Below are positions 51,060 through 62,255 of a stretch of DNA of 64,000 nt, one piece after another (positions within the stretch are counted from its first letter, which is position 1; every line of letters begins with the position of its first letter). Made by a program: the position numbers and the translations under genes. The DNA lies in the NCBI RefSeq assembly GCF_011082085.1, contig NZ_CP041063.1, positions 3,830,001 through 3,894,000 of the forward strand, read 5' to 3'. The DNA is from Bacillus sp. Cs-700 (lineage in GTDB: Bacteria; Bacillota; Bacilli; Bacillales; Guptibacillaceae). The notes under the pieces were generated by a model, which worked only from the letters and a program-made list of their open reading frames with translations, ran no database searches and was not told the origin of the DNA.

Positions 51060-52256
51060 GTGGAAACCTATGCCGTTTTTCGAACACCGCAAACGATTTT
51101 ATATGGTCGAGAGTCATTTAAACAAATTGGAGTGGAAGCTTCCAATCGTGGAAGTAAAGCGCTCATTATAAGCGATCAGGTGATGGCTGGTCTAGGCTAT
51201 GTAAGTGAATGTCAGGATTACTTGAAGGAGAAGGGGGTTGAAAGTGAGGTTTATACCGGAGTGGAGTCAGAACCGACTGATAAGTATGTGGCAGAATCGT
51301 TAGCCCTTTTAAAAGAGAGTCAGTCTGATGTCGTGATCTCGCTTGGGGGTGGGAGCTGTATCGATACAGCAAAAGCCATCGTTGTCCTTGCCACAAACGG
51401 GAGTGACTTAGGCGATTACCGATTAAACAAGAAAGTCGCAGAGCACGCACCAATCCCACATATCGCTATCCCTACGACAGCAGGAACGGGTTCAGAAGCG
51501 ACGGATGTTACGGTTATTACCAATACATCAAATGATGTGAAAATGATGGTCAAGCAGCCAGCCTTTATGCCAGCTGTTGCGATCGTGGATCCATTGTTAT
51601 CAATTTCATCACCACAGCATGTGACGGCGGCGACAGGAATCGATGCGCTTAGTCATGCGATTGAATCGTACTTATCTAAACGGTCTCATCCAATGACAGA
51701 TACGTTCGCGCTAGCAGCGATCAAACTCATTTCACAAAATATTGAGAACGCTTACTTCAATGATGACAACCTTGAAGCGAGAGAAGCGATGAGCTTAGCG
51801 GCATTACAAGCAGGAATGTCATTTACAAATGCATCGGTTTGTCTCGTTCACGGAATGTCGCGACCAATAGGGGCTCTCTTCCATGTGCCACATGGCTATT
51901 CCAATGCGATGCTCTTACCTGCTGTTCTTGAATTTAGTAAGGGTGCCTGTCAGCAGCGCCTTGCCCATATCGGTCGCATTTTCCAACCTGGCAGTGCCAC
52001 TCTTACTGATGAAGAAGCAGCTGAACAAGCGGTGGCTTCCGTTCAAGAACTTTGTCGCACGTTAAACATTCCCAATCTGAAATCGTGGGGCATTGAGCAA
52101 GAAGCCTTTAACCGAGCCGTTTCTAAGATGGCGGCGGATGCGCTTGATAGTGGGAGTCCAAGCCATAACCCTCGCGTTCCTACTCAAGCAGAATTAGAAG
52201 AACTTTATCTCACTTGCTATGATTACCAATTTCGTAGCGAGCACAAGGTTCAATAA
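51060..52256 (+). CDS. Iron-containing alcohol dehydrogenase
   Basis: A 398-residue Fe-dependent alcohol dehydrogenase, the first gene of the sigma-54 unit. It has GGGSCIDTAKAIVVLATNG, PTTAGTGSEATDVTVI, and the metal ligands in DALSHAIESYL and VHGMSRPIGALFHVPHGYSNAML. GTG 51060 is eight bases after GAAGGAGTG. Together with the GntP permease and CoA-acylating dehydrogenase it suggests oxidation of a hydroxy-acid such as 3-hydroxypropionate, 3-hydroxyisobutyrate or 4-hydroxybutyrate to a semialdehyde (inference). Confidence 0.9.
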   Translation: METYAVFRTPQTILYGRESFKQIGVEASNRGSKALIISDQVMAGLGYVSECQDYLKEKGVESEVYTGVESEPTDKYVAESLALLKESQSDVVISLGGGSCIDTAKAIVVLATNGSDLGDYRLNKKVAEHAPIPHIAIPTTAGTGSEATDVTVITNTSNDVKMMVKQPAFMPAVAIVDPLLSISSPQHVTAATGIDALSHAIESYLSKRSHPMTDTFALAAIKLISQNIENAYFNDDNLEAREAMSLAALQAGMSFTNASVCLVHGMSRPIGALFHVPHGYSNAMLLPAVLEFSKGACQQRLAHIGRIFQPGSATLTDEEAAEQAVASVQELCRTLNIPNLKSWGIEQEAFNRAVSKMAADALDSGSPSHNPRVPTQAELEELYLTCYDYQFRSEHKVQ

Positions 52257-52286
52257 CGCGCTTAGAGGGTACAGGGAGGGAAAAAC

Positions 52287-53636
52287 ATGCTAGGCATGCT
52301 GGGCTTAATTTTATCCTTAGGCCTCCTCATTTATTTGACGATGAAAGGGATCAACATCATTATTGCGGCGATTCTTTGCGCCGTGCTCGTTGCCCTTACT
52401 GGAGGACTAAATCTAGAAACAGCGTTAACCGATTATTACATGACGGGATTCACGTCTTACTTTGCTTCATGGTTTCTCATATTCTTATTAGGAGCCATCT
52501 TTGGAAAAGTGATGCAGGAAACGAAAGCGGCAGACAGTATTGCGAATTGGATTAAGAATACGCTCGGTCCTTCTCGCTCCGTCTTTGCGGTCGTTGCGGC
52601 AGCAGCCATCATGACCTACGGCGGCGTTAGCTTATTCGTTGTCGGCTTTGCGGTTTATCCCATTGCCGTCTCTCTTTTTAAATTAGCGAACCTGCCACAT
52701 CGCTTTATCCCTGCAGCACTCGTCTTTGGCTCGATTTCCTTTACGATGACAGCTCCGGGATCACCAGAAATTCAGAACCTGATTCCAACCGAGTACTTTG
52801 GAACCAAACCAACGGCTGGTGGGTTCATCGGCATTCTTATTGCCATCTTGATCATGCTAACGGGTGGATGGTTGTTAGGAAAAATGGTGAAAAAAGCGGT
52901 GCGGAATGGGGAAACTTTCTCATTACCTAACGCTACTTCAAAAGCATCAAATGAAATCGCTGCAACAGCCGAGCTGAAGCAGGTGTTGCCAGAACCAGAG
53001 CCAGAGGAAAAGCACTATCCTAATGTCATTTTAGCCATCTTGCCACTCGTCACGGTAATCGTCTCGTTAAATACGCTGTCCAATTTCATTTCATCAACCG
53101 GGGCCGCCCTTATTTCGCTCGCTTCCGGTATTGCTTTAGCGTGTGTGATTATGCTTCCATACTTACAAGAATTCTGGAACCCGCTTGCGAAAGGGACGCA
53201 TGATGCGTTAATTGCTGCTGCGAATACTTGCGCCGTAGTTGGCTTTGGTAGCGTGGCGGCACAGGTCGGGGCTTTTCAAACCGTGGTTGATGGACTTGTG
53301 AATATTCCGGGTCCACCACTGATGGGACTTGCAATTGCAGTCACGCTTATATGTGGACTAACGGGCTCAGCGTCCGGTGGTCTTGGAATCGCACTCCCGA
53401 TTTTATCCCCGATTTATTTAGGGATGGGGAACTTAGATCCTGGCGCGATGCACCGTATTTCAGCCCTTGCATCAGGTGGACTCGATTCGCTTCCACATAA
53501 TGGCTATGTGGTGACCACGATTCGTGCGATTTGTGGCGAGACACATAAGCGTTCTTACGGACCGATCTTTTTACTTAGCGTTATCCTGCCGACGATCGCT
53601 TTGATCCTGGCAGTGATTCTATACTCGATTTTCTAA
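52287..53636 (+). CDS. GntP-family permease (hydroxy-acid/gluconate:H+ symporter)
   Basis: A 449-residue membrane protein with about 12 helices. Typical features are LGLILSLGLLIYLTMKGINIIIAAILCAVLVAL at the N-terminus, YGGVSLFVVGFAVYPIA, TMTAPGSPEIQNLIPT, and GLTGSASGGLGIALPILSPIYL with SGGLDSLPHNGYVVT. GntP members import gluconate, 3-hydroxybutyrate or related acids. GGGAGGG precedes the ATG. In this operon it probably brings in the substrate of the Fe-ADH. Confidence 0.88.
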   Translation: MLGMLGLILSLGLLIYLTMKGINIIIAAILCAVLVALTGGLNLETALTDYYMTGFTSYFASWFLIFLLGAIFGKVMQETKAADSIANWIKNTLGPSRSVFAVVAAAAIMTYGGVSLFVVGFAVYPIAVSLFKLANLPHRFIPAALVFGSISFTMTAPGSPEIQNLIPTEYFGTKPTAGGFIGILIAILIMLTGGWLLGKMVKKAVRNGETFSLPNATSKASNEIAATAELKQVLPEPEPEEKHYPNVILAILPLVTVIVSLNTLSNFISSTGAALISLASGIALACVIMLPYLQEFWNPLAKGTHDALIAAANTCAVVGFGSVAAQVGAFQTVVDGLVNIPGPPLMGLAIAVTLICGLTGSASGGLGIALPILSPIYLGMGNLDPGAMHRISALASGGLDSLPHNGYVVTTIRAICGETHKRSYGPIFLLSVILPTIALILAVILYSIF

Positions 53637-53666
53637 AAAGTGTACAAAAAGGAAGGGGACTTTAAC

Positions 53667-55124
53667 ATGGCAACGACAACAACTAATATTCTTCAAAATT
53701 ACATTAACGGTAAATGGGTAGATGCAAAAACCGATCAATTTCAATCTGTACCGAACCCAGCAACGGGTGAAGAACTCGCACAGGTACCGATTTCATCAAG
53801 AGAAGATCTTGATGAAGCAGTAAAAGTTGCAAAGGCAACCTTCAAAACGTGGAGCAAAACCCCCGTACCGAAGCGGGCGCGCATTCTTTTTAAGTACCAG
53901 CAGCTTCTTGTCGACAACTGGGACGAGCTTGCGCGATTGCTTACACAGGAAAATGGAAAAAGCTTTAAAGAAGCGCAGGGCGAGGTACAGCGTGGGATTG
54001 AATGTGTGGAATTCGCAGCCGGTGCGCCTTCCTTAATGATGGGGAAACAGCTCCCGGATATTGCAACAAACCTAGAATCAGGCATGTACCGGTATCCCGT
54101 CGGCGTCGTTGGTGGCATTACACCGTTTAACTTTCCGATGATGGTGCCATGCTGGATGTTCCCACTCGCAATTGCCATGGGAAACACGTTCGTTCTGAAG
54201 CCTTCGGAACGAACACCTCTACTCGCGAACAAACTAGCGGAATTGTTCAAAGAAGCGGGTCTTCCAGACGGCGTCCTCAATATCGTTCACGGTGCCCATG
54301 ATGTCGTAAATGGACTTCTAGAGCACAAAGACGTGCCAGCGGTTTCCTTTGTCGGCTCACAGCCTGTCGCTGAATACGTGTACAAAACAGGAGCAGCAAA
54401 CGGCAAACGCGTTCAGGCTCTGGCCGGTGCGAAAAACCATTCCATCGTCATGGCAGACGCTGATCTTGACGCAGCGGTGAAAGAAATTATTGCCGCTTCC
54501 TACGGATCAGCAGGAGAGCGCTGTATGGCCTGCTCGGTCGTTGTCGCAGTAGACGATGTCGTCGAGCCACTGCTTCAAAAGCTGAACGAAAAAGCAGATG
54601 AAATTAAAATCGGAAACGGACTAGATGACGATGTGTTCCTAGGACCAGTCATCCGGAAAGAGCATAAAGAAAGAACGGAAAGCTACATTCATAAGGGTCA
54701 GGAAGAAGGTGCCACGCTCGTCCGAGACGGAAGAAACGATGAAGCCTACAACGACAAAGGCTACTTCATTGGGCCAACGATCTTTGATCACGTGAACACG
54801 TCTATGCAAATCTGGAAGGACGAAATTTTCGCGCCCGTTCTATCGATTGTACGAGTGAAAAACCTAGAAGAAGCAATCGAACTCACAAATGAATCCGACT
54901 TCGGAAACGGCGCTTGTCTCTTCACCCAAAGCGGCAGCAACGTCCGCTACTTCAGAGAAAACATTGAAGTCGGCATGCTTGGCGTCAACATCGGCGTCCC
55001 AGCCCCAATGGCGTTCTTCCCATTCTCTGGATGGAAAAATTCATTCTACGGCGATCTTCATGCGAATGGGTCGGATGGAGTGGAGTTTTATACGAGACGG
55101 AAGATGTTGACGGCTCGGTGGTAG
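53667..55124 (+). CDS. iolA: CoA-acylating methylmalonate-semialdehyde dehydrogenase
   Basis: A 485-residue ALDH of the MmsA/IolA subfamily, which turns malonate or methylmalonate semialdehyde into acetyl- or propionyl-CoA. Diagnostic segments are [67 protein letters not shown] and [14 protein letters not shown] with the catalytic Cys286. GAKNH instead of ELGGK near the base position is a subfamily hallmark. ATG 53667 follows AAAAGGAAGGGG. It lies outside a myo-inositol operon, coupled to a sigma-54-controlled alcohol dehydrogenase and permease. The symbol reflects family only. Confidence 0.9.
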
Positions 55125-55292: not shown

Positions 55293-55640
55293 ATGGCCAT
55301 TCCGACTTATTCAAAATTTACTAGCTTCAAAGAATCGATTCCCTCCCTAATAGATCCAATTGACGGGGAAGAGCTAATAAACGAAACTTTTTTACTTGAA
55401 CGAGACGAGAAAAAGAACTTGGAAATGTATTATGCTCCGTTCTAACATGTGAATGAGCATGTAAAAATCGTGATTGTCGGAATTACTCCAAGACTTCATC
55501 AGATGAAGAGATCATTTGAAACGGTTTGGAATAACGTTAATGAAGAAAATGGAGATGAAGTGGTTTTACAAAAAGTGAAGAATCGTTCCAGTTTCGAAGG
55601 TCCAATGAGGAAAAAACTGATTACGATGGTAGATGAATAA
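55293..55640 (+). pseudogene. Broken gene with in-frame stop and truncated 3' end
   Basis: ATG 55293 opens MAIPTYSKFTSFKESIPSLI and reads MYYAPF before an in-frame TAA at 55443. The same frame then continues HVNEHVKIVIVGITPRLHQMKRSFETVWNNV to 55640. The YAPF-x-HVN...KIVIVGITP junction is natural, so the stop looks like a point mutation (Gln/Glu codon to TAA). The intact family is a protein of over 200 residues with a uracil-DNA-glycosylase-like start; here only about 115 codons remain, so the 3' part is also lost. Confidence 0.55.
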
Positions 55641-55753
55641 ACTACATACATACCACAATTTTTTATATAGGCAATATGATTCTTCTCAAGCGAACTATCT
55701 ATTATTTGTTAGTTTAATATAAAATATTAAGTAGTAGGATGAGGTGCAGAAAG

Positions 55754-56629
55754 TTGAAAATTAGTGATATATCTAATGGAGCTATACTAGAGAAAGTTGA
55801 ACTTAGTGATCAAGAAGAAGATAATTGTTCAATGTCTAATGTAAGTATATTTAAAGGGAAATTATTTAATCTTGGTATGAAACACGCTCAATTTTCTTCA
55901 TGTAATATAAAGCAAACGTATATTGAAAAATCTTATTTTCGATATGCAATTTTTGTTAATGTAGACTTTACAGGGACTAAATTTATAGAATGCGACTTTG
56001 AAAAAGCAAAGTTTAACTCGTGCAATTTGCGGTATGTAACTTTCGAAAAATGTAAACTAAATATTGAAGAGGTTTTGGGCTGTTTACCAACTGAGCCAAA
56101 TTTGAAAGTAGCAATACTAAAAGAACTCAGAAAGAATCAGTTGAGTCTTGCAGAAAATAAATCAAGTGATGAATTACTAATTATGATACAAGAAGCTGAG
56201 AAAGAATTATTGCGGGAAAGAGTAAAAAGTAGAACAAGCTATTATAGAGAAAGAGAAAATATAATTTCTAGAACAATAGCACTAGTAAATTATATTTTGC
56301 TAATTATAAATGATTTCGTTTGGGGTTATGGGGTAAGATTAGCAAAATTATTTAGAACTGGTTTATTAGCAATCTTGTTTTTTGGATTATTAATTTATAC
56401 TACAACTGGAAAAGAATATATAGTTATTACAGAGTATGGTAATAAAATGATAAGATTGAATGTATGGCAATCCTTATATGCAAGTTACACTAACTTCACA
56501 ACTATAGGTTACGGGAGATACACCCCTACTGGAGTATTTAGTAATTTTATTTTTGTAATAGAAAATTTTGTAGGACTAATTTTTATAGGATTTCTTGTTG
56601 CTGGAGTATATAGGAGGATTTCTAAATGA
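55754..56629 (+). CDS. Pentapeptide-repeat protein with C-terminal ion-channel domain
   Basis: A 291-residue membrane protein. Residues 30-105 are pentapeptide-like repeats (ADLSX-type rows: MKHAQFSSCNI, YFRYAIFVNVDFTGTKFIECDFEKAKFNSCNLRYVTF). A charged helical linker (about 125-170) follows, then a two-helix pore module with LLAILFFGLLIYTT, the pore loop YTNFTTIGYGRYTP, whose TIGYG matches a potassium-channel filter, and a last helix FVGLIFIGFLVAGV. TTG 55754 follows GAGGTG by seven bases; ATG 55739 is the alternative. It overlaps the nucleotidyltransferase gene by four bases. AT-rich codon use differs from the genes before 55 kb. Confidence 0.75.
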   Translation: MKISDISNGAILEKVELSDQEEDNCSMSNVSIFKGKLFNLGMKHAQFSSCNIKQTYIEKSYFRYAIFVNVDFTGTKFIECDFEKAKFNSCNLRYVTFEKCKLNIEEVLGCLPTEPNLKVAILKELRKNQLSLAENKSSDELLIMIQEAEKELLRERVKSRTSYYRERENIISRTIALVNYILLIINDFVWGYGVRLAKLFRTGLLAILFFGLLIYTTTGKEYIVITEYGNKMIRLNVWQSLYASYTNFTTIGYGRYTPTGVFSNFIFVIENFVGLIFIGFLVAGVYRRISK

Positions 56630-57348
56630 AAAATGAAAAATCAGTTAATGAAATTGATGAGCTGATAAATATTATCTTATTTGGTTCAAAGGCAAGAAAA
56701 GATAATGACTTATATTCTGACGCGGATATATTTATTCTTGTAGAGGATGTTTCACAAATAAGGAAAAAACAAATAATAGAAATAGTAGAGAAAGCAATAG
56801 ATTTTGATAACGTAGGTATATCTATTTATACAAAATCATTATTTGATAAGTTACTACAAGAGGGTTCTATGTTTTTATGGCATTTAAAAATGGAAGGGAA
56901 AAATATTTATTGTAGAGATAAGGAGGTCGACCTATTTGAGAATCTAAATGAATTTACTAAATATGAAGTTAACTTAAAAACATATATAAATATATTCAAT
57001 AAAACAAAGGAAAGTCTAAGTCGAAATGGGGTAAACATATTTGACCTCTCTCAATTGTTTTTTGTATGTAGAAATTTATGTCTTTTAACATGTTTTAGAA
57101 AAGGGACGCCTACTTTCGGTAGAATTACAGTTTATACCAATTTGTCGAGTGTGGTGAGTAATATGCCTCTAAGTCTTCAAAATTACAAGTTTTTATCTAA
57201 GTGCAGGTTAAATTATACAAGAGCAGCAGGACTTGATATACCAATGCCTTCTGAAAAATATTTGTCAGAATTATTGCTTGAGTTAGACCGGTTAATTGAA
57301 CTATGTACTGAAATCATTATGGAGGATGAATTTAATGGAGGATTTTAG
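56626..57348 (+). CDS. Minimal nucleotidyltransferase (MNT-like) protein
   Basis: A 240-residue protein whose first 100 residues form a minimal nucleotidyltransferase: ILFGSKARKDNDLYSDADIFILV, with Gly20-Ser21 and the metal-binding pair Asp32/Asp34. The usual third acidic residue is not clearly placed in VGISIYTKSLFDKLL. Residues 110-240 are helical and could form a HEPN-like bundle, but no Rx4-6H motif is evident. Such MNT proteins act as AMPylating antitoxins of HEPN toxins or as second-messenger-like effectors. It overlaps the channel gene (ATGA) and the next gene. Confidence 0.72.
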   Translation: MKNEKSVNEIDELINIILFGSKARKDNDLYSDADIFILVEDVSQIRKKQIIEIVEKAIDFDNVGISIYTKSLFDKLLQEGSMFLWHLKMEGKNIYCRDKEVDLFENLNEFTKYEVNLKTYINIFNKTKESLSRNGVNIFDLSQLFFVCRNLCLLTCFRKGTPTFGRITVYTNLSSVVSNMPLSLQNYKFLSKCRLNYTRAAGLDIPMPSEKYLSELLLELDRLIELCTEIIMEDEFNGGF

Positions 57349-57733
57349 AGAAACAAAACAATTTTTGGCTACTTTAATAAGAGATAGAACCAAAGTTTTC
57401 GATTTTGAAAAAGTAACTCTATTTGAAAGAGAGCTTTTTTTATCATTGCAGTCATTATTAATTAATTCATACAATTATCATATTGATGGGCTTACAAAGC
57501 AACACAAGGACAACTTTTTTTTCTATATAAATAAAAGAGATATAGAAATTGAAGAGAAGTTATTAGAATTAATATTAGCTGGATTTAATGCATATGAAAA
57601 ACTTAATGATAGGAGTGTTTCTATGAGCTATACTGACTCTACCTTAGAAGTCGAGGAAGATGAGATAGAGAATTTCATTTTTTTAATAGAAAAATATATC
57701 AAATTATATGAAGAACATTCGATTAATTACTAA
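57335..57733 (+). CDS. Small helical protein of the channel-NTase cassette
   Basis: A 132-residue, helix-rich acidic protein starting MEDFRETKQFLATLIRDR and ending EEDEIENFIFLIEKYIKLYEEHSINY. GGAGG lies about eight bases before ATG 57335, inside the end of the nucleotidyltransferase gene, which it overlaps by 14 bases. I do not recognise a family and see no HEPN motif. Tight overlap makes it a functional part of the three-gene unit 55754-57733. Confidence 0.6.
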   Translation: MEDFRETKQFLATLIRDRTKVFDFEKVTLFERELFLSLQSLLINSYNYHIDGLTKQHKDNFFFYINKRDIEIEEKLLELILAGFNAYEKLNDRSVSMSYTDSTLEVEEDEIENFIFLIEKYIKLYEEHSINY

Positions 57734-58439: not shown

Positions 58440-60794
58440 TTGCAAAACTCACCCAGCCCTTTTGTACATGGTAGGCTTTCTTGGATCTGTTACGGGGGCG
58501 GGCTAACAAATGTACCTGTAAGAAATCACGACGTTAAAAACGCATATTCAATGTTAAATAAAAATCGATATGGTGGTGATTCCTTGGATTGGATTAAAGA
58601 ATCGGTACTTAACGGTAATCTAGATGACTATGAAAGAATCTACAAGTTTTATTACAATCAGCCTGACAAATATGGATTTCAAATGATACCGTCAATTTTA
58701 CACGACTTTATGAAAGTTGTAGCTGAAAGTTTTCAAGGAGTTAAAGTGTTGGATTCTTGGATGAATGTGGGAGAATTATCTTATCCCTGGATGAATACTT
58801 CTAACAAAATCAGCGCTATAAATAACATCCCAGATCAAGTAGAAGTTGCTGAAAGACTCTTTGCTCAAAAATCAGATTCCTGTTACGAATTGCGAACTGG
58901 TGACCCTATCGATGAGCTGAAGTCAGACTTCAATGTGTATGACGTTGTTGTGAGTAGCCCACCCTTTGGTAATAAAAGTAATCACATACCCAAGGGGTTT
59001 AGAATAAGAGATTATGGTTACGACATTATTATTGAGACTATGAAAAAATTAGATGTAGAAGGGGTTGGTTTCTTTTTAGTTCCACCTTCATTTTTACACA
59101 AGAGTTCTGTAAATAACATAAGGAAGTTTATGGAAAATCAAGGTTTTTATTTGGATGCAGCATTTTACTTGCCACCAGGAATTTTTAAATCAACCTCTAT
59201 ACATGCTTATTTGATAGTTATAAGAAAAGAGCCTCTCAACAATCTCTTTATAGCAGAATTAAAGAGTAGTGAAAATATTAGAACAGTTATTTCAAATTGG
59301 AAAAAAAGGAAATCAGGGAGTACCTTATCTCTGGGCTATTTGACTAACGAAGAAGCTTTTACTTCTTTCAAGAATGTAGAGAAGTACTTGGAAGTCAAAA
59401 GGTTGGCTAAAAGATCTGGACTAAAACCGACAACCTTAAATGAATTTGTTCTAAGTTACAATAGACACCCAAAGAGTATTGATGAAGAATTTCTAGAAAA
59501 TTATAATAGTGTATTCATTCCATCAATAGGAACATCTGATATTCTTACCAGTTTAGATGAAAGCACCCTAAAAGAAAAAGAAAATTATTATATGCAATTA
59601 GTTTTGGACCCTAAAAAAGTCAATGCTGATTACATGGCCAATTGGTTTAATACCGAGCTTGGTAGATTGGTAAGAGAAAGCATGATGACAGATGCGCCTT
59701 TCCCTACAATTAATATCCCTTCTTTAAAATGGACTGAAGTATATTTACCAGAAATTGAAACGCAGGTTGAAACGATAAGTACACAGTCCAAAATTAACAA
59801 CTTGAGGGCAGATTTGGATAGCATAGAAAATCACCTTTGGAAAAAGCCGAAATCTATTAGGTCACAGGAAAGAAGGTTGACGCAATTAAACAGAGAGATG
59901 GGATTGGTTCAATGGATTGATAAACTTCCTTTTCCATTAGCATCGATACTTTGGAAGTATCATGCCACTAAAGAGACTAAGGTAAAAAAAGAATATTTAC
60001 TTCATTTCTTTGAGGCTCTTGCTCAGTTTGAAGTTGTAATCATGCTCAGTGCACTTACTGATGAGGAATCAATATTGGGGAAACTAAATTTGAGTAAAGA
60101 GAAATTACAAAGGAGTACTTTCGGCTCGTGGGTAGTTATTGGCGAAAGATTAGCGAAGGAATTTAGAAGGTTACTTTCAAATAAAGATGAAAGGGAATAC
60201 TGCTTGAACCTTTTGAAACAAAATAAAACGGATTTAATCAACTCGCTGATTAGTAAGAAAGTTTTCCGTATCCTGAATCAAACACGTCAATACAGAAACG
60301 AGTGGAAAGGTCATGGGGGCGCAGAAGGTGAAGCAGAATCCAAACGTCGGTTAGATTTATTGGAAGTTGAATTGGTATCTTTGAGAAGTGAGTTGGGGGA
60401 CGTCTTTGAAGACTATAGTGTCATAACTCCAGGGAGTGGCCGTTTCAAATCTGGTCTATTTCATTGTAAATGTAAATTAGTCATGGGTACTCGTACTCCT
60501 TTTAAAGATGTATTGGTAAAAACTAAAGAAGGGTTGGAAGTGAACGAGTTATATCTAACAGAGGAAGGTAATCACGAAGCCTTGAAACTACTTCCTTTCA
60601 TAAGATTAATGCCAAGTCCTCAAACTCAGCTTGATGCTTGTTATTTCTACAATCGTATGGATACGAATGGAGTCAGGATGATTTCCTATTATTTTGAACA
60701 GGATGCTGACATCAGTATTGAAGATGCTTCATTCATTCAGTACCTTACTGACTGCATTAATAGGTTGGATGTGACAGATAGTAAAGAGCTTTGA
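58440..60794 (+). CDS. N6 adenine DNA methylase-like protein with HEPN-like C-terminus
   Basis: A long reading frame of up to 784 codons. Residues 75-260 look like a class I N6 methylase: a degenerate motif I (VLDSWMNVGEL in place of DPxxGxG) and motif IV VVVSSPPFGN (SPPF, residues 173-176, for NPPY). The region after 290 resembles type I specificity/target-recognition and coiled-coil segments (IETQVETISTQSKINNLRADLDSIE). Near residue 619, RNEWKGHGG fits the R-x5-H form of HEPN nucleases. The start is unsure: TTG 58440 lacks a ribosome binding site, as does ATG 58551, and the 5' end could be lost. No restriction subunit is next to it. Confidence 0.65.
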   Translation: MQNSPSPFVHGRLSWICYGGGLTNVPVRNHDVKNAYSMLNKNRYGGDSLDWIKESVLNGNLDDYERIYKFYYNQPDKYGFQMIPSILHDFMKVVAESFQGVKVLDSWMNVGELSYPWMNTSNKISAINNIPDQVEVAERLFAQKSDSCYELRTGDPIDELKSDFNVYDVVVSSPPFGNKSNHIPKGFRIRDYGYDIIIETMKKLDVEGVGFFLVPPSFLHKSSVNNIRKFMENQGFYLDAAFYLPPGIFKSTSIHAYLIVIRKEPLNNLFIAELKSSENIRTVISNWKKRKSGSTLSLGYLTNEEAFTSFKNVEKYLEVKRLAKRSGLKPTTLNEFVLSYNRHPKSIDEEFLENYNSVFIPSIGTSDILTSLDESTLKEKENYYMQLVLDPKKVNADYMANWFNTELGRLVRESMMTDAPFPTINIPSLKWTEVYLPEIETQVETISTQSKINNLRADLDSIENHLWKKPKSIRSQERRLTQLNREMGLVQWIDKLPFPLASILWKYHATKETKVKKEYLLHFFEALAQFEVVIMLSALTDEESILGKLNLSKEKLQRSTFGSWVVIGERLAKEFRRLLSNKDEREYCLNLLKQNKTDLINSLISKKVFRILNQTRQYRNEWKGHGGAEGEAESKRRLDLLEVELVSLRSELGDVFEDYSVITPGSGRFKSGLFHCKCKLVMGTRTPFKDVLVKTKEGLEVNELYLTEEGNHEALKLLPFIRLMPSPQTQLDACYFYNRMDTNGVRMISYYFEQDADISIEDASFIQYLTDCINRLDVTDSKEL

Positions 60795-61022: not shown

Positions 61023-62255
61023 ATGTACAACTCCTACAAAAGTACTGATAATGCTTCACCTGGAATCGTTTATAGTAATATCAGTCTAATAAAAAGAGCA
61101 CTATTGTTAAAAGATAATCGAAAGATACCATATCCTGAAATTGTGTTATTTATAAAAAAACATTGGACGGACTCAAGCAGCAGTTCATCCGAGGTTGAAA
61201 AGATCGTTAATCTTGCCTTGTATGCTCCGAAATCCCACTTTGTTGAAGACGAAGAAGGATTATGGAAAATAAAAGATCAAACAGATAAAAGGTTGGATGC
61301 TATCTATGCTTATGTGAAAAAACTTAAAAAGCCATTTAAAACAGGGCACATCAAATACAAGTTGAATCTGTATGAAACAGAAGATGTCATTGAAAATTTG
61401 CTGACTAGTGATATTCGGTTCATGCAGGTGGAAAGTACGCATTTTTGGGTACTAACAGAATGGCAATTATGTAATGATGAAATCTTCAATTATATGAAGG
61501 AGAAAAAAATATCTCAGGAAAAAATAGCCGTTCTACTAGCTGAGACAAAATATAAGTATGCTAGAGACTCTATTTTTGCTCCCGAAATTGATAACAGGTT
61601 TAAAGTGAATGGTAATTATGTAAAAGTAAATTTGGAATTATCACCCGAGCCAACCGCCCAATCGATTAAAGAGATACCAATTGAAGTAAAAGAGGAGCTA
61701 AGCCGACTTGGTCCAAAATTGATTAAAAAAGTTAAAGATGAATTAAATGGCATTACCGTGAAGGATTTATTATATGTGGTATTACATATTAAGGAATCCG
61801 ATGCCTCATATGCTATTTATGCTAAAGGTGTTGATGAATACCTAAAAAATGTACCTCGGGTCTCTAAATTGAAAGATAAATGGTTTGACTTGGATTCGGC
61901 ACCTGATCTTGCTTTGAATAGCATTGAACAACAAAACTATTCAGTTAGAGGATCAATTCCATTAATCAAAAACATAAATAGTATTGCAGATAAAAGAGGT
62001 AACGAAGAGAGTGATACATTTCTAGATAATTCTTACACTGGTAAATCTAGTGCGGTTAATCCTGCTAATTATGCTTATTATAATGTATCTTATTTTGATA
62101 GAATAAGAGGTCATCTACCAGTTCCGTCTTCACTTAAGCATCATTCGGTGTTTGAAAACCAGACGGGTAAATTAGAAATGAAATGTGAAGAGTTTATATA
62201 TGAATGGTGGTGGCAAAAGAAGCATAATCGCATTTATTTTTATGGGACGGTGTGA
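61023..62255 (+). CDS. Winged-helix (HARE-HTH-like) protein
   Basis: A 410-residue protein. Residues 20-85 (SLIKRALLLKDNRKIPYPEIVLFIKKHW, then SHFVEDEEGLWKI) match the HARE-HTH/RpoE-delta winged-helix pattern of proteins that link DNA or RNA polymerase with other domains. A second similar winged helix spans about 90-150 (DAIYAYVKKLKKPFKTGHIKYKL, then MQVESTHFWVL). The rest is helical and charged without a recognised fold. AAGAAGGGGTGGGAG precedes the ATG. It follows the methylase-like gene's terminator. The frame downstream is broken, and this may be the intact 5' part of a longer gene. Confidence 0.6.
   Translation: MYNSYKSTDNASPGIVYSNISLIKRALLLKDNRKIPYPEIVLFIKKHWTDSSSSSSEVEKIVNLALYAPKSHFVEDEEGLWKIKDQTDKRLDAIYAYVKKLKKPFKTGHIKYKLNLYETEDVIENLLTSDIRFMQVESTHFWVLTEWQLCNDEIFNYMKEKKISQEKIAVLLAETKYKYARDSIFAPEIDNRFKVNGNYVKVNLELSPEPTAQSIKEIPIEVKEELSRLGPKLIKKVKDELNGITVKDLLYVVLHIKESDASYAIYAKGVDEYLKNVPRVSKLKDKWFDLDSAPDLALNSIEQQNYSVRGSIPLIKNINSIADKRGNEESDTFLDNSYTGKSSAVNPANYAYYNVSYFDRIRGHLPVPSSLKHHSVFENQTGKLEMKCEEFIYEWWWQKKHNRIYFYGTV

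Follow-up and report, generated by a model that had tools for sequence, protein, structure and literature searches.

A three-gene locus of Bacillus sp. Cs-700 that is probably a Hailong-like channel guard with an added third gene

The main finding concerns three overlapping genes of Bacillus sp. Cs-700 at positions 55754-57733 on the plus strand of the window, the whole 64,000-nucleotide stretch of DNA that was analysed and to which all coordinates refer. The first two genes are distant relatives of HalA and HalB, the channel effector and the nucleotidyltransferase (NTase) of Hailong, and the trio is probably a Hailong-like nucleotide-gated channel guard to which a third gene has been added. 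We regard it as an unclassified three-gene branch, a sister group that would work like Hailong while standing outside Hailong proper. In the literature on Hailong, the NTase product inhibits the channel (PMC12657230, PMC12265719), poly-dA adducts of HalB block HalA (PMC13275509), and a decoy logic is described (PMC12657218). By homology, the trio would follow the same guard logic, with a product that inhibits the channel. The genes and their main features are listed below, with lengths in amino acids (aa).

55754-56629, plus strand: gene 1, HalA-like effector, 291 aa (Pfam, NCBIfam HalA, AlphaFold model and PDB fold match)
About 55784-56047: pentapeptide beta-helix of gene 1, followed by linker helices and then TM1
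56339-56404, plus strand: first transmembrane helix (TM1) of gene 1
56462-56500, plus strand: pore helix of gene 1
56501-56515, plus strand: TIGYG filter of gene 1, residues 250-254
56534-56623, plus strand: second transmembrane helix (TM2) of gene 1
56626-57348, plus strand: gene 2, HalB-like NTase, 240 aa (NCBIfam HalB, PDB profile match and hhalign)
56719-56727, plus strand: active site of gene 2, GS...D32-x-D34 (motif GS-x10-D-x-D)
56872-56901, plus strand: FLWHLKMEGK motif of gene 2, partly common to HalB
57335-57733, plus strand: gene 3, five-helix protein, 132 aa, with position kept and size similar in 25 other distinct loci
S94/S96/Y99/S102 of gene 3: end of helix 4 and the following loop

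The first-pass annotation, made from the DNA sequence alone, had described three overlapping AT-rich genes for a channel, an NTase and a small helical protein, and this description was borne out. Genes 1 and 2 overlap by 4 bases and genes 2 and 3 by 14, and the G+C content of the trio is 27.8%, against 48.0% for positions 51060-55124. Gene 1 has a TTG start with AGGTG upstream, and an in-frame ATG is also present at 55739; for gene 3 an in-frame TTG lies further upstream at 57296. Scans for promoters and terminators remained at chance level (16 versus 14.0 and 0 versus 0.5, respectively).

The assignment of gene 1 was deduced from family, profile and fold comparisons, for which the Hailong references were NCBIfam NF051894 and NF051895 and PDB entries 9nyi, 9dbh, 9dbi and 9dbj. 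Pfam Pentapeptide (2.4e-12) and Ion_trans_2 (2.9e-7) were both matched over cut-off, confirming the pentapeptide-repeat ion channel with TIGYG that had been proposed at first pass. This motif corresponds to the potassium channel filter T-x-G-Y-G and lies between the predicted pore helix and TM2. The NCBIfam HalA model was matched at 8.1e-11 (41.7 bits), the best stretch being residues 145-290, which comprise the linker and the channel, and all 25 aligned effectors from trio loci matched the same model at E <= 0.01 (best 4.5e-12). When gene 1 was modelled with AlphaFold (pLDDT 85.7, 21-row alignment), the top PDB fold match of the model was 9nyi, which is HalA with oligodeoxyadenylate (E 1.5e-9 over 318 columns), and the runner-up was found at 5.5e-5. 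A comparison of the effector alignment with three HalA by hhalign gave 4.1e-13. The effectors number 25, against 26 NTases, because the effector open reading frame (ORF) of one locus, L034, was left out of the alignment. This ORF of Rugamonas rubra (L034:378-893) has 171 aa and no pentapeptide part; the NTase and third gene of the locus are open and of normal length.

Gene 2 had been called a minimal nucleotidyltransferase, a description that had to be abandoned since the protein of 240 aa is HalB-like, with a long part at its C-terminal side. It matched Polbeta and NTP_transf_2 over the Pfam cut-offs, and its PADLOC matches, over the NTase core, were to candidate families alone (PDC-S09 at 7.3e-9 and PDC-M05A at 1.1e-7). 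The NCBIfam HalB model was matched at 4.7e-12 (46 bits) and was also matched by all 26 aligned NTases (best 1.9e-14). When a profile of the 26 NTases was compared with the PDB, three HalB entries came first (1.9e-13, 2.1e-13 and 4.3e-10), with other NTases at 4.4e-5 or weaker, and hhalign of the family against nine HalB-type NTases gave 1.9e-19 over 146 columns. The residues common to the trio NTases and HalB are GS, SDxD, G..F..H...E and later R and F. In an unrooted tree, in which the branch of L025 is long, the 26 trio NTases were split from the nine HalB-type NTases with a support of 100/100. Loss of the third catalytic carboxylate was considered as a mark of the trio family and rejected, because the site, judged by eye, is also non-acidic in the HalB of three HalA-HalB loci (L053, L054 and L064).

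The third gene belongs to a conserved arrangement. The first-pass annotation would have been refuted by genes that were not conserved together elsewhere; the order of the trio was in fact kept in 25/25 other distinct loci, a number that excludes the window and counts L002 and L024, which are the same place, once. Close relatives are the trios of Sutcliffiella horikoshii (L002, NTase 53% identity) and of a Priestia megaterium plasmid (L005, 50%), and records of plasmids from Janthinobacterium, Rhizobium and Pseudomonas supplied three further loci. A profile search of genome contigs that was seeded with the NTase only gave 21 loci from 41 pattern matches. All 21 had an effector-type gene directly upstream of the NTase; the ORF directly downstream has about 96-142 aa and either overlaps the NTase gene or lies no more than a few bases away. 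By record title or taxonomy, the trio loci belong to six phyla, namely Bacillota, Pseudomonadota, Bacteroidota, Acidobacteriota, Chloroflexota and Omnitrophota, the last three being represented by metagenome-assembled genomes only. The whole trio was also carried by 3/3 IMG/VR contigs from the profile search (3 contigs from 21 pattern matches); no match was obtained when phage records were searched with the window NTase by tblastn or in two scans of viral contigs with single proteins. The distribution is patchy, gene 2 being found in 2/101 genomes and gene 3 in 2/398, with the window's own genome counted in each. Among 75 neighbours of 20 loci, scattered OLD/Gabija-like, AriA, mad3, type I restriction-modification (RM), resolvase and integrase families were observed, with at most 2 members each among the first 25 families listed; as there was no control set, enrichment is not claimed.

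The likeness to Hailong lies in an effector that combines pentapeptide repeats with a two-TM ion channel and is followed by an adjoining HalB-like NTase; both features are present in the trio, and in the trio loci the NTase stands directly downstream of the HalA-like effector. The differences are the conserved third gene, the C terminus of the NTase, the scores and the filter. A third gene of the trio kind was not found behind halB in the three HalA-HalB loci inspected, from which, rather than from the original Hailong description, the two-gene layout was taken (L053, HalA 446 bits and over cut-off; L054, 230 bits; L064, from E. coli E2348/69 and annotated halA). Profiles of the third gene gave best E values of 0.023 and 0.044 against 870 ORFs of ten HalB-type loci. 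According to the abstract of the founding Hailong study, that of Tan et al. in 2025, HalB is reported to prime DNA synthesis on its C-terminal tyrosine. A tyrosine was found within the last two residues in 9/9 aligned HalB-type NTases versus 1/26 trio NTases, and as the very last residue in 6/9 versus 0/26. T[IV]GYG occurs in three Bacillota trio effectors, whereas the corresponding loop of three HalA has GYT.

HalB-type NTases were also matched in 19 plasmid records, seven of which were examined (six aligned, L065-L070, and L071 only searched). The six aligned ones resemble the trio in that a HalB-related NTase is found in a small gene cluster; they differ in that the C-terminal tyrosine is kept in 6/6 and no third-gene match was found under E 0.02. 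A pentapeptide-channel gene was not annotated alongside; the neighbours were WYL-domain genes at L066, L068, L069 and L070 and a DUF1883 gene at L067. It is possible that these are Hailong-like systems with other effectors. At L065, an unannotated ORF is similar in size and place to the DUF1883 gene of L067.

For gene 3 itself, neither Pfam nor PADLOC nor NCBIfam gave a match at E <= 1, and the best match among PDB sequences had an E of 0.52. The structural model (pLDDT 86.7, 22 rows) has five helices and a weaker stretch at about residues 91-110, and the fold gave no match at E <= 0.001 to the PDB (155 matches at E <= 10, best 0.49) or to viral models (164 matches, best 0.53). The ratio of nonsynonymous to synonymous substitution (dN/dS) was about 0.08-0.17 for the third gene in 4/6 pairs, similar to the NTase, and one pair was saturated. 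Residues S96, Y99 and S102 (window numbering) are invariant in the three Bacillota third proteins, and the 22 third proteins outside Bacillota and Omnitrophota have one serine, S68 of L044, in common without exception. By alignment, and for the window also by the model, these invariant residues fall where the long fourth helix ends or within the loop that follows it. The third proteins form two groups. The non-Bacillota ones cohere, in that four left-out alphaproteobacterial members were recovered at E 4e-14 to 1e-10, while the Bacillota profile recovered the Omnitrophota protein at 8.6e-6, its sole non-training match at E <= 0.05 among 2,963 ORFs. A single ancestor for all third genes was considered and found unsupported, as the two groups were unlinked by decoy, hhalign and shuffle tests: the scores were 14.6, 12.8 and 11.1 bits against 12.0 for the best of 903 decoys, hhalign gave 0.036, and with L025 added the score was 9.9 against 15.4 for the best of 60 shuffled controls. 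Across the groups, the third genes are equated by their position, their size and an inferred pattern of helices.

Several of the observations weigh against the reading of the trio as a Hailong-like guard. The window proteins score far under the curated cut-offs, at 41.7 of 250 bits for HalA and 46 of 190 bits for HalB. The HalA model also matches 4/14 controls at E <= 1e-4, and of the 25 effectors that match HalA, 24 are also matched by pentapeptide models of Qnr. The HalB model weakly matches 130/299 genomes of the phylum as well as 5/14 controls through the common NTase core; such cores dominate this prevalence, which was not taken as a count of Hailong. The superposition of the gene 1 model on 9nyi is loose (TM-scores 0.44/0.39, root mean square deviation 10.8, 11% identity), and the 25-effector profile reaches 9nyi through the pentapeptide part alone (5e-7, 1 of 39 chains). 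The GYG filter is absent from 22/25 effectors, T[IV]GYG, as TIGYG or TVGYG, being found in the other 3/25. For the third protein, no invariant hydroxyl was found over the 26 sequences, R32 being the only invariant residue; the gene is faster in the L002/L005 pair, with a dN/dS of about 0.47; and the third proteins of the window's clade could not be linked by sequence to those of other clades beyond chance. Since the models also match controls and Qnr models match the effectors, a single HalA or HalB match is weak alone. The Hailong kinship draws its weight from the two genes as a pair, from the fold match over the full length and from the comparisons of profiles.

In Hailong, the channel is repressed by oligodeoxyadenylate, and a phage exonuclease sets it free. 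The proposed mechanism of the Hailong-like guard is as follows. The HalB-like NTase would constitutively make an inhibitory product, most likely an oligonucleotide or a nucleotide adduct. Because the trio NTase is without the C-terminal tyrosine on which HalB is said to prime, the nucleotide acceptor would lie outside the NTase C terminus, plausibly at a hydroxyl of gene 3 in the S94/S96/Y99/S102 region, or else the chemistry would differ. The product, free or on the third protein, would bind the pentapeptide domain of gene 1 and keep the channel shut. Phage infection would destroy or sequester the product, upon which the channel, with its canonical potassium filter in the window's clade, would open and the cell would be arrested or killed. 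The role so given to the third protein is inferred. In a more specific version, a hydroxyl of the third protein, in place of the C terminus of the NTase, would be the anchor on which the NTase assembles a nucleotide chain, and the conjugate would plug the channel, with synthesiser, carrier and channel being separate proteins; this version is put forward tentatively and may well prove incorrect. The earlier proposal, a membrane pore under NTase control with a toxin-inhibitor flavour, is supported by the kinship to HalA and HalB and by the defence region; the NTase is not a minimal MNT.

The combination of an NTase core with a small helical neighbour is also found in type VII toxin-antitoxin (TA) systems. 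In these, MntA modifies HepT, a small helical protein encoded beside the NTase, and the HEPN motif is R-x4-6-H. If the trio were of this type, the third protein or the channel would receive one nucleotide, or a few, directly from the NTase, and the modification itself, rather than a free or carried oligonucleotide, would control toxicity. A match to the MntA antitoxin model was obtained for 24/26 NTases at E <= 0.01, the third protein is small, helical and beside the NTase, like HepT, and the missing C-terminal tyrosine fits a protein substrate. However, the window NTase scored 23.5 bits with the MntA model, under its cut-off of 60 and weaker than the 46 bits for HalB, and the effector is a HalA-like channel and not HEPN. 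The identification of gene 3 as a HEPN toxin was rejected, as the HEPN family was absent from the matches of the 26 third proteins and the bare R-x4-6-H was present in 2/26. A type VII TA-like system is deemed rather unlikely.

Positive signalling of the CBASS type would use the same components in the opposite sense, with infection activating the NTase, its product opening the channel and the third protein acting as sensor. A channel, an NTase and a small protein are compatible with such logic, and the fast evolution of the third gene between L002 and L005 is as may be expected of a sensor. However, the NTase was not recognised as a CD-NTase, the only Pfam families over cut-off being Polbeta and NTP_transf_2, and its only PADLOC matches, PDC-S09 and PDC-M05A, are not named CBASS. 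Furthermore, the closest relatives of genes 1 and 2 inhibit the channel with the product, as stated in PMC13275509, PMC12657230 and PMC12265719. This alternative is considered distinctly improbable.

The first-pass annotation had been aware of no described system with this exact trio. This statement requires amendment for genes 1 and 2, which are of a described kind (Hailong), and agrees with the literature searched for the three-gene form: none was found among the literature matches listed, although the founding Hailong description (doi 10.1038/s41586-025-09058-z) was outside the search and may mention such a clade. The word Hailong was absent from PMC9122126 and appeared only in the reference list of PMC12483538 and of PMC12632851. 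If the Hailong-like reading is true, nucleotide-gated channel guards would form a wider class in which Hailong is a single branch. The three-gene branch extends over six phyla, plasmids and IMG/VR contigs, far under the present HalA and HalB cut-offs. In the members with TIGYG, a channel of HalA-like type is combined with a conventional potassium filter, and the third gene and the missing C-terminal tyrosine together pose the sharp question of where the signal is primed.

The genomic setting of the trio was defined by comparison with 8 matched relatives of the genus, four of which (L095-L098) were examined in detail. The features of this setting are listed below.

55653..55654: left junction of the variable segment, where homology to the genus relatives ends
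55293-55640, plus strand: broken 5' part of a UDG-like gene (context, outside the system), residues 1-115 of a 247-aa gene at 83% identity
58440-60794, plus strand: N6 methylase, mad2-like neighbour (PADLOC mad2 1.1e-11, N6_Mtase 2.1e-5)
L062:14699-19844, L063:89-3000 and L063:15896-19689: DISARM drmA, drmB and drmC, a C5 methylase gene and a nicking-endonuclease-like gene, then gajB and gajA

The blastn matches with the four relatives end at 55649-55653, and in all 8 they end between 55636 and 55653. The UDG-like gene forms an uninterrupted ORF of 247-260 aa in the four relatives and is broken in the window; its sole Pfam match, from one copy searched, was UDG at 5e-4, under the cut-off. This gene marks a variable site, with other restriction or candidate defence genes nearby in 4/4 relatives: L095 and L098 have type IV restriction genes, L096 has an AAA_5 gene (candidate family PDC-M26A), and L097 has both a GmrSD-type gene and a transposase. 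The first-pass annotation had placed the trio beside a methylase-like gene and relics; the former is the gene at 58440-60794, and as to the latter, the stretch at 55293-55640 is a broken gene part. The site also bears on a further alternative, namely that the trio is a non-defence potassium channel operon, serving for example osmotic or membrane homeostasis. The TIGYG filter is intact in the window's clade, as such a function would suggest; the patchy distribution, the plasmids, the IMG/VR contigs and a site with other defence genes are unlike housekeeping, and we give this explanation very little credence.

Behind the mad2-like methylase, a gene of 410 aa at 61023-62255 was without a significant family match. 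Beyond the window, DrmA of a DISARM system starts about 12 kb after the trio and is followed by DrmB and DrmC; after DrmC stand a C5 methylase and a nicking-endonuclease-like gene, resembling a type II RM pair, and together with DISARM these span about 12-20 kb downstream. Two adjoining UvrD/GajB-like helicase ORFs (386 and 610 aa, minus strand) were observed at L062:11569-14574, the first perhaps shortened. GajB and GajA of Gabija are found about 33-37 kb downstream of the trio, past sequence common to the relatives. Upstream of the trio, the aldehyde dehydrogenase gene at 53640-55124 is one of two copies in this genome; the other, with 83% DNA identity, lies about 57 kb further upstream.

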